This document shows positions 12,974 to 15,262 of a stretch of 64,000 bases of DNA, piece by piece. The DNA comes from Planctomycetota bacterium. Its GTDB lineage: Bacteria; Planctomycetota; Phycisphaerae; UBA1845; UTPLA1. Location: positions 1 through 64,000 of the forward strand of contig JACRIM010000058.1 of the NCBI GenBank assembly GCA_016235815.1, read 5' to 3'. The notes under the pieces are model-generated. The model was not told where the DNA came from and ran no database searches. It was given only the letters and a program-made list of their open reading frames with translations. The translations under genes and the position numbers were made by a program. Position 1 is the first letter of the stretch, and every line of letters begins with the position of its first letter.

Positions 12974-13519
12974 CTAGAGCTGCTCCACCGTCACATGCTC
13001 GTTCGTATGAATGTTGATGCCCCCTGCGATTCGAAGCGCCGCAGCGACAATTTCTCCAGATGCCATCGTCGTATGGTTCAGCAGTGCACGTGCCGCGGCT
13101 AATGCGCACGATCCACCGCTCCCGATGGCGAGAATCCCGTCCGTCGGCTCGATCACATCGCCGTTGCCGCCGATGATCAGGCTCACGTCGTGGTCGGCCA
13201 CCGCGATCAGACTCTCCAGCCGTCGCAGGGCGCGGTCGGTTCGCCAATCCTTGGCCAGCTCAATCGCAGCCCGCTTGGTGTTCCCCTTGAACTCGTCCAG
13301 CTTCGCCTCAAATCGTTCCAGCAGCGCGAACGCATCGGCCGCCGACCCGGCAAAACCCGCAAGAACCTTGCCTTTGAACAGCTTTCTGACCTTCACGGCA
13401 TCGGCCTTGAGGACCGAATCGCCGAGGGTCACCTGCCCGTCGCCCCCCATGGCCACGGAGCCGTCGCGACGGACGGAAAGAATGGTCGTCGATCGGATTT
13501 TCGGATGGCGGGTCGGCAT
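12974..13519 (-). CDS. hslV: ATP-dependent protease proteolytic subunit HslV
   Basis: The 181-residue protein, starting [10 protein letters not shown] behind a GAGG site, is the N-terminal-nucleophile threonine protease of the HslUV (ClpYQ) complex. Thr11 in [12 protein letters not shown] should be the catalytic Thr after removal of a 10-residue propeptide. Other HslV features are [11 protein letters not shown], the [18 protein letters not shown] segment, [32 protein letters not shown] and the C-terminal [14 protein letters not shown]. The longer frame to 13552 lacks an RBS. The usual partner hslU is not next to it: convergent and divergent neighbours fill both sides. Confidence 0.93.
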
Positions 13520-13571
13520 AAGTGAAACCTCGAACCATGGCCAAGGTATCATGTTTCCGCGGAGCGTGCCA

Positions 13572-14108
13572 ATGCGACAAAGATCAAATGCACCAACGAT
13601 GGGTTTCCGAAGCGGATTCGCGACGATCGCTTACCACACAGCGGCCCCTGCGACGTGGTTATTGACCATGGTGCTCGCCTTCGTAATCGGCTGCAAAGAG
13701 AACGCACGTGTTACCGACTCGCAGCCCGCAAAGGAGCCTGCCTCCACGCCGCCGCCGGTAAGCATCGAACAAACCGCCGTAAAACCACCCGAACCGCCGC
13801 CACCCCCCAAACGGCCGAAGGACTCCTGGTTACTGTTCCGCGAGGCCGGCGACGAAAAAGTCGACGCCTCCATCGTTGCCGACTGGACCGGCGGCAATCG
13901 CCTGGAGGTCAAAACGCGAAACGTGCGGAAGGTCGTGCTCGACCTGACGAAGCTTCCCGAGGGCGCCCCAACGCGCGGCCCTTGGACGCTTCAGATCGAC
14001 GGACAGGGGATTGAAATCTTCGGCAAGAAAGGGCGCGTGATGGACTTGTTCCGTTCACCCAACGGCGACTGGGCCATCGTGCCGGACAGCCACCGGGCCA
14101 AACCCTGA
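13572..14108 (+). CDS. Proline-rich lipoprotein
   Basis: The ATG at 13572 follows CGGAGCGTGCCA; an in-frame ATG at 13599 is an alternative. The N-terminus carries a hydrophobic segment ending in a lipobox ([13 protein letters not shown]). A Pro-rich spacer ([15 protein letters not shown]...[11 protein letters not shown]) follows, then a compact domain of about 100 residues with [22 protein letters not shown] and [37 protein letters not shown] recognise no family. The Pro-rich linker suggests an outer-membrane-anchored domain displayed away from the surface. It ends 3 bp from the convergent DUF167 gene. Confidence 0.65.
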
Positions 14109-14111
14109 CTA

Positions 14112-14405
14112 CTACTCGAGCTTGAGGACCGCTCGGAGTTGCTCCGCGTTCACCCCCTCAATCCGCACCCGCTTGCGTGGATTGGAGTGCCCGGAGATCA
14201 CCCTGACGGAGCCTTTGGACAGCCCCAATGTCACCGCCAATAGCGACTCAATGGCAGCATTTGCACGCCCTTTCTCGGGCGGCTCGGCCACCTGAATCTT
14301 CAACTCCTCCCCCAGCGGCCCGACGATACGGGTCCGCGACGCCCCCGGCACAGCCTTCACGAGCATCTCCACCCCACCGCCAGATTCTCGAATCGAAATG
14401 GGCAT
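14112..14405 (-). CDS. DUF167 (UPF0235/YggU) family protein
   Basis: The 97-residue protein carries the family pattern: VKAVPGASRTRIVG, LKIQVAEPPEKGRANAAIESLLA and VRVISGHSNPRKRVRIEG. The KGRANAAI segment is diagnostic. The family is conserved in all domains without a firmly known role and often lies next to YggT or septation genes, but not here. Length and domain are complete. Confidence 0.9.
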   Translation of the reverse strand: MPISIRESGGGVEMLVKAVPGASRTRIVGPLGEELKIQVAEPPEKGRANAAIESLLAVTLGLSKGSVRVISGHSNPRKRVRIEGVNAEQLRAVLKLE

Positions 14406-14509
14406 CGTTGGATCCGTTCACCCCTCGCTCGATCACAAACCCTTGAAAATCTGCGGCAAGGGGCGTCCTTGACACCCGGCCACAGGGTGGCGATCATCCT
14501 CCGTATTGC

Positions 14510-14530
14510 AATTGAGACTCAGTCTCAATT
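14510..14530. promoter_or_regulatory. 21-bp perfect dyad, Fur-like operator candidate
   Basis: Two 10-base arms, AATTGAGACT and AGTCTCAATT, flank a central C. The dyad ends 36 bp before the heme oxygenase start, in the promoter interval. The TTGAGA...TCTCAA arms resemble Fur-family operators of several bacteria. Iron control of a heme-degrading enzyme would make sense; binding is inferred, not shown. Confidence 0.65.
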
Positions 14531-14566
14531 AGGCACACGATAACGCTTTATCAATCGAGGAACCAA

Positions 14567-15262
14567 ATGCTCGCTGCCAATGATACGCGACCCATCATGT
14601 TCGAACTCAAGGAGTCCACCCAGGCCCTTCACGATCAAACCGAACACGGCAATTTCAACAAGGAACTCGTCAACGGCCGACTACCGCTGGCCCAGTTCGT
14701 CGAGTCCCTCGCCCAGTTCTACCTGATCCACCGTGCCTTGGAGTCGCAAATTCGCAGCCACCGCCCCCACTCCCCCGCCATGTCAGCCGTAGTCTTGGAC
14801 TATCAATTTCAGGAGCCTTATCTGCTCAACGACCTCGCATACTTCGGGCGAAATTGCGAGACGATTCACCCCCTCCCGGCAACCACGGATTTCATTGCCC
14901 GAATCGACGCAGCCGCCGCCGAATGCCCTGTCGCGCTGCTCGGTATGCACTATGTCTTAGAGGGCAGCAACAATGGCTCAAAGTTCATCGCCAAGGCCAT
15001 TCGACGCGCATACAACCTGACCGACCGGAACGGCACCCAATACCTCGACCCCTACGGCGACCAGCAGCGCGAGTATTGGCAGGCCTTCAAGGATGCCATG
15101 AATGCGCAGGACTTCAGCGACGTCGAGCGACGCCAGATCGTGCGCGCGGCCACGGAGACCTTCGCCGCGGTAATGCAGCTTCACAGGGAATTGGATGCCG
15201 GCTCCTCCCCCACGCCGCAAGCGACCGCCCCCAAGACCGGTGGCTGCCCCTTCCATCGCTAG
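14567..15262 (+). CDS. Biliverdin-producing heme oxygenase
   Basis: The 231-residue protein would open heme to biliverdin, CO and Fe2+ and so release iron. In LKESTQALHDQTEHGNFNKEL, His22 is the expected proximal heme ligand. The heme-oxygenase signature occurs as MHYVLEGSNNGSKFIAK near residue 125, in place of the more common YVLEGSTLGG. Near the end, TFAAVMQLHREL closes the helical core. The final residues GGCPFHR form a Cys-Pro motif like the heme-regulatory motifs of other heme proteins. The ATG at 14567 follows CGAGG; an in-frame ATG at residue 11 is possible. The upstream 21-bp dyad suggests iron-responsive repression. Confidence 0.87.
   Translation: MLAANDTRPIMFELKESTQALHDQTEHGNFNKELVNGRLPLAQFVESLAQFYLIHRALESQIRSHRPHSPAMSAVVLDYQFQEPYLLNDLAYFGRNCETIHPLPATTDFIARIDAAAAECPVALLGMHYVLEGSNNGSKFIAKAIRRAYNLTDRNGTQYLDPYGDQQREYWQAFKDAMNAQDFSDVERRQIVRAATETFAAVMQLHRELDAGSSPTPQATAPKTGGCPFHR

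Follow-up and report, generated by a model that had tools for sequence, protein, structure and literature searches.

In the 64,000-nt stretch of planctomycete DNA analysed here (the window), a heme oxygenase (HO) gene is preceded, 36 bp upstream, by an inverted repeat, AATTGAGACT-C-AGTCTCAATT, and encodes a protein that ends in KTGGCPFHR. This locus raises the question of whether the gene is controlled twice, by iron at the promoter and by heme at the protein, as a preliminary description of the DNA had proposed. The two features behind that proposal are present as described, since the dyad is exact over its 21 bp and the GGCPFHR sequence forms the C-terminus. The best explanation for the data as a whole, which we consider quite probable, is that the HO gene would be repressed by iron through Fur and would serve to salvage iron from heme, with the CPFHR tail tuning the enzyme. 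The features of the locus are listed in Table 1.

Table 1. Features of the heme oxygenase locus, with positions in the window
Feature	Position	Strand	Basis or remark
Sigma-70-like promoter TTGACA, 17 nt, GATCAT	14469..14497	+	Consensus match, predicted
21-bp perfect palindrome, putative Fur operator	14510..14530	.	7-1-7 core TGAGACTCAGTCTCA at 14513-14527
GAGGAA, possible ribosome-binding site	14557..14562	+	By eye
Heme oxygenase gene, 231 aa, ATG	14567..15262	+	PF01126, E 1.9e-30
His22 codon; the residue aligns with the region of the proximal heme ligand in HO	14630..14632	+	Invariant in 56 relatives
VLEGSNNGSK, residues 130-139, distal Gly-rich helix	14954..14983	+	Alignment
Flexible linker, residues 212-226	15200..15244	+	Block mean pLDDT 64, 58 from residue 211
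CPFHR, Cys227-Arg231, candidate CP-type heme regulatory motif	15245..15259	+	Conservation, recurrence

The position of the palindrome was assessed by searching positions 14380-14620 for promoter-like sequences. A single site was found, with TTGACA at 14469-14474 and GATCAT at 14492-14497; it matches the consensus at 10 of 12 positions, and shuffled sequences contain 0.2 such sites on average. The dyad starts 12 bp downstream of the predicted -10 element, so that it would extend over the start site and the first bases of the transcript. Contrary to the earlier placement, it overlaps neither the -35 nor the -10 element of this site. The 15-bp core of the palindrome conforms to TGAnAnTnAnTnTCA, the 7-1-7 inverted-repeat form of the Fur consensus, and with the predicted promoter it has the location expected of a Fur box. 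When up to three mismatches were allowed, the dyad itself was the sole match in the window (0.01 expected), and only 1 of 100 window shuffles gave any match. Four neighbouring genes were compared with Pfam, and heme uptake genes were not among them, in agreement with what had been noted before. On the minus strand, positions 12974-13552 encode the HslV protease subunit (NCBIfam E 8.8e-77), and this gene is overlapped on the opposite strand by a long lipoprotein-like ORF (13011-14108).

Further copies of the box were searched for in the genome of the same organism (4.58 Mb, 95.5% complete). Three exact sites of the 17-bp core TTGAGACTNAGTCTCAA were found, with 0.0004 expected from the base composition of the window; on the grounds of this expectation and of the window shuffles, a chance palindrome was rejected. 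The three cores precede the HO gene, a feoA-feoB pair (FeoA, PF04023, E 1.3e-23; FeoB, PF02421, E 5.7e-56) and a CbiX-like gene. At feoA the arrangement of the HO gene is repeated, with TTGACA-17-TATCAC followed by the box. The CbiX-like gene starts 18 bp after the core; its match to CbiX is weak (E 0.00047, below the Pfam cut-off), and by eye its product is lipoprotein-like with a His-rich insert. From its sequence, the product may belong to the iron regulon as an exported protein for metals or tetrapyrroles. Such a gene with an exact box occurs in two genera (L001:517-1482, minus strand, box 18 bp upstream; L071:518-1486, minus strand, box 14 bp upstream). Close to the CbiX-like gene and to an ORF resembling an efflux pump, there are two related small Cys-rich (CxxC) ORFs (L006:1508-1849 and L006:3597-4097, both on the plus strand). 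With up to two mismatches, the 17-mer has four sites in the genome, compared with one for the reversed control. The fourth site (C44:11029-11045, equal to L004:1501-1517) has one mismatch and lies between ORFs that by eye are TetR-like and prepilin-like; no iron gene was evident by eye beside it. For the 15-bp core with up to two mismatches, 12 sites were obtained versus four for the reversed control, and eight two-mismatch sites, near which no clear iron gene was seen by eye, were taken as background.

A sample of 120 genomes of the class contains 12 exact cores, spread over nine genomes, while the reversed control gave none. Their neighbours are HO genes (three sites: the window, L070 and L074), feoAB (one), sufB (two: L067 and L073), a gene for an FTR1 permease (L072), one for a DtxR-family regulator (L069) and CbiX-like genes (two: L001 and L071); the remaining two sites have no clear iron link (L066, and L068 next to a Kelch-repeat protein gene). 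FeoA, FeoB, SufB of L067, FTR1 and the DtxR-family protein were confirmed with Pfam, and SufB of L073 and the CbiX-like protein of L071 were named by eye because they resemble their counterparts in L067 and L001. The scan of the genome, which had been suggested as a check, and that of the class thus show exact copies mainly by iron genes, clearly so (HO, FeoAB, SufB, FTR1 or DtxR-family) at 8 of 12 sites. Promoter-like sites were also looked for at 48 boxes, of which 40 belong to HO genes and eight others were chosen by hand, with L066 and the C44 site left out. At 24 of the 48, such a site ends no more than 25 bp before the box; shuffles gave a mean of 0.47 and a maximum of 3. At the sufB gene of genome G460 (L067:1501-1525), only 7 bp separate the exact box from the ATG, and a TATAAT lies 3 bp upstream of the 15-bp core. 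Here the operator would sit over the start of transcription, with little leader left. A literature search named no described iron-regulon operator for this class among the matches listed. We offer TGAGACTnAGTCTCA as such an operator for genomes of the Phycisphaerae class, with which the iron genes of the class become mappable by sequence.

Fur-type iron control is known for several bacterial HOs. A search for HO homologues gave a match in 35 of 392 genomes for the phylum, in 39 of 114 for the order and in 84 of 397 for the class, and 14 further loci came from genome contigs. By HO protein, the closest named relatives are Phycisphaerae and Phycisphaerales assemblies. Identical proteins show that some of these assemblies coincide with genomes of the window's order or class, and this assigns the window to that class. 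The class contributed 100 rows, which after removal of seven duplicates represent 93 different proteins; HO-like hits outside the class (L023-L039 and five without loci) were not counted. A box was scored when at least 12 of 14 positions matched TGAGACTNAGTCTCA within 450 bp upstream, and L096, with just 14 bp of upstream DNA, was omitted. By this measure, 40 of the 92 class homologues have the box upstream, 13 of them in perfect form. Controls were close to zero: the reversed motif gave 0 of 92, Markov-shuffled upstream regions a mean of 0.12 (maximum 1), the first 450 bp of the genes 0, and permuted palindromes a mean of 0.085 (maximum 2). The scores are two-humped, with 48 rows at 7-10, 40 at 12-14 and four at 11. 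In the clade of the window's family, 11 of 13 rows carry the box, which together with the count for the class supports the iron-type transcriptional control proposed earlier on the basis of the dyad. The 52 homologues below the threshold include two of the same family (L084 and L087, score 8). No other Fur-like palindrome that matches TGAnAnTnAnTnTCA (with 9 or more of the 10 fixed bases and 5 or more of the 7 pairs) was found at the homologues that score 11 or less. The half-site varies most at its sixth base, which is C in 31, A in 6 and T in 3 of 40; this gives the natural variant TGAGAAT, a half-site of classical Fur boxes.

The genome encodes one Fur-family protein (PF01475, E 4.7e-30). 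Among the NCBIfam models, those for Fur score best on this protein (78.6 and 68.6 bits), followed by PerR (64.8) and Zur (46.5), all of them below the cut-off. The presence of the box goes along with that of the regulator, with a Fur-family protein in 35 of 36 box-bearing and 33 of 42 box-less HO genomes (p 0.017, related genomes being counted separately). This comparison started from 79 of 85 HO genomes, leaving aside those with a box score of 11 (G384, G732, G693 and G649) and less complete ones (G603 and G479); G527 was then removed since its upstream DNA is missing. The only box-bearing HO genome in which no Fur was found, G567, is 85% complete. Near the fur gene itself the best box match is 11 of 14, with 242 bp to the contig end. 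PMC7536154 describes the Fur box as two inverted heptamers round one base (7-1-7) in a 21-bp site. The HO palindrome shares this layout, the promoter site and the iron genes downstream; its half-site TGAGACT is richer in G+C than TGATAAT, and unlike in that scheme it sits just after the -10 element. Fur is favoured as the reader because of this layout and the co-occurrence. Taken together, transcriptional iron control of the HO gene is well supported, and the palindrome is likely to be read by Fur, as far as sequence comparison can tell.

A DtxR-family repressor could instead read the palindrome as an iron or manganese operator. One DtxR-family protein is indeed encoded in the genome of the window, which is the genome that this search covered, and in G453 a DtxR-family gene has an exact box 47 bp upstream, which autoregulation would explain. 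DtxR operators are of the TTAGG type and thus look different from the box, whose natural variants contain TGAGAAT. Upstream of the window organism's own dtxR gene, the best box score is 9. Moreover, among the 10 HO genomes that lack Fur and whose upstream DNA can be read, nine are without the box, and the core of the box fits the 7-1-7 layout that PMC7536154 gives for Fur. We therefore regard a DtxR-type reader as improbable. It seems even less probable, and indeed very unlikely, that the Fur-family protein acts as PerR or Zur and that the regulon answers peroxide or zinc. The PerR and Zur models match the protein too, below the cut-off, and HO could serve heme detoxification in oxidative stress. 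However, the Fur models score highest, and the neighbours of the box are genes for iron import and Fe-S assembly (FeoAB, FTR1 and SufB).

With Fur as the likely reader, the second part of the question concerns the enzyme. An AlphaFold model of the protein (pLDDT 93.8, pTM 0.88), made with an alignment of 56 of the 91 homologous proteins, was compared with solved structures by Foldseek, and HmuO of Corynebacterium diphtheriae and human HO-2 were the nearest folds, HmuO with a TM score of 0.81 and 26% identity. The protein has the fold and His22 in common with HmuO and other PF01126 HOs. In contrast to HmuO, it carries Ser134 in place of the distal Asp and a C-terminal CPFHR tail, and has no adjacent heme uptake genes. 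The sequence VLEGSNNGSK, pointed out before as a variant signature, is present, but the variant is the conserved form in the clade: in the 56 relatives of the alignment (56 of 91 proteins), V130, G133 and G137 are invariant and E132 and N136 nearly so. It aligns with YMGDLSGGQ of HO-2, and Ser134 takes the position of the HO-2 Asp. The GDxSGG sequence with Asp that marks the HO-1/HmuO branch is thus replaced, and Ser134 is a clade-wide trait. For this reason we file the HO under PF01126 and not in the HO-1/HmuO branch.

From residue 211 on, the pLDDT block means are 64, 58 and 45, so the Cys-Pro lies in a flexible segment. In 10 of 91 homologues (L021, which is cut, and L125, which is interrupted and has 61 aa, were left out), CPF falls within the 25 C-terminal residues, compared with a mean of 0.098 and a maximum of 2 in composition shuffles, and it occurs nowhere else in these 91 proteins. 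A looser CP, found in 14 of 91 tails, is weaker (shuffles 2.4, maximum 9). A Cys-Pro in a flexible segment and an occurrence beyond chance in relatives are what is expected of a CP-type motif. Of the 13 rows in the window's clade, seven have a C-terminus of the CPFH type, such as GKCPFHHG, GGCPFHR and PKCPFHAAAR, and the linkers before it vary in both length and sequence. The other six rows lack CPF, so the basic enzyme can do without the tail. Elsewhere in the tree CPF is found in L020 (GKCPFGHG), L097 (PKCPFHEK) and L098 (RRCPFAHG). On the HO tree the CPF label requires five changes versus 9.6 for shuffled labels, and at least three are forced by well-supported branches. Judged from this tree, which leaves gain and loss undistinguished, the CPF tail has been gained or lost repeatedly. 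The box is also present at 8 of 10 CPF-tailed HO genes. That CPFHx is a common protein end was rejected, as its very-end form TGYCCNTTYCAYNNNTRR was found once in the genome, at the HO. In another HO clade (L126, L129, L132 and L144), a common His-bearing HSVHV stretch lies near the C-terminus.

A similar sequence, GKCPFH, lies near the N-terminus of E. coli KatG. The heme-sensing role that we propose for the tail is drawn from its likeness to motifs of Irr and HO-2. According to PMC11442138, the heme-binding CP motif of Irr is GCPWHD (Gly-Cys-Pro-Trp-His-Asp), with which the tail shares G-C-P-aromatic-H; Irr is a Fur-family regulator, whereas the motif here sits on an enzyme. Human HO-2 resembles the window's HO in that its core is followed by a flexible Cys-Pro segment, and heme bound to its heme regulatory motifs (HRMs) lowers activity in vitro, as stated in PMC11900463. 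HO-2 has two such motifs, while the HO described here has one at its very end, and, unlike for HO-2, no membrane anchor is seen in the model, in which CPFHR is a candidate heme site. On this analogy, heme binding by the tail is speculative, and heme control through it appears plausible from the sequence. There is a little less than an even chance, in our estimate, that CPFHR is unrelated to heme and represents a metal-binding, redox or docking tag or a near-neutral sequence. Cys plus His can bind other metals, and 77 of 91 homologues lack a CPF, CPV or CPA tail (81 lack CPF). A non-heme tail is, on the other hand, at odds with the excess of CPF over composition on differing linkers, with the low number of tree changes and with the close likeness to the Irr motif.

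We propose that, when iron is plentiful, metal-loaded Fur would occupy the palindrome just after the -10 element and block transcription. When iron is short, HO would be expressed together with the other box-bearing genes, feoAB and the CbiX-like gene. The enzyme would then open heme to biliverdin, CO and Fe2+, and the CPFHR tail might bind a second heme with a regulatory role, or serve as a thiol sensor, and in this way tune activity or the contact with a redox partner, like the HRMs of HO-2. Repression as the sign of the regulation, the catalytic activity of the HO and the source of its heme are parts of this proposal that we infer. Searches of the 95.5% complete genome gave neither a Plug domain of TonB receptors nor the PHY domain of phytochromes. 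Accordingly, heme uptake of the TonB type and a supply of bilin to phytochrome were both rejected, and the most likely job of the HO is to salvage iron, without a TonB receptor, from endogenous heme or from heme that enters otherwise. What is new here is a Fur-type box specific to the lineage, placed at an HO whose core is ordinary and whose CP tail is unusual and recurrent. Human HO-2 as a model of HRMs is complicated by its two motifs and its membrane anchor; if the tail binds heme, the HOs described here would be simple soluble models for the effect of an HRM on HO.

At 38 of 93 loci (among them L011, L013, L075, L086, L133, L140, L051 and L052), a short ORF of the form xRLGxxGFxFFxxKGLLWLxxPA, which corresponds to a single-helix membrane protein, lies within 450 bp before the HO gene. 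Its starts are uncertain, and L012 is without an in-frame start codon. Upstream of the window's HO the small ORF is absent, and two search patterns match nowhere in the 64-kb window. No family model was matched in Pfam (one sequence) or NCBIfam (three), and two sequences run against PHROGs gave nothing significant (E 0.14 and 0.36). The box is present in 19 of the 38 loci and lies upstream of the small ORF in all 19, so that box, small ORF and HO gene look like one transcription unit. Combined with the findings above, a wider reading can be put forward tentatively, although we think it rather less probable than not: Phycisphaerae would repeatedly have fitted a soluble, Fur-controlled HO with a C-terminal Cys-Pro heme sensor, and the small protein may tether the HO to the membrane. 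The sensor would be a bacterial equivalent of the mammalian HO-2 HRMs, and control would then have two layers, with the promoter answering to iron and the protein to heme. The membrane tether would parallel the C-terminal anchor of eukaryotic HO. In 37 aligned cores of the small ORF, two Phe are identical throughout, K, G and W being fixed by the search pattern. Variation is highest at the third codon position (0.56, versus 0.38 and 0.24 at the other two), as is usual for a real protein.
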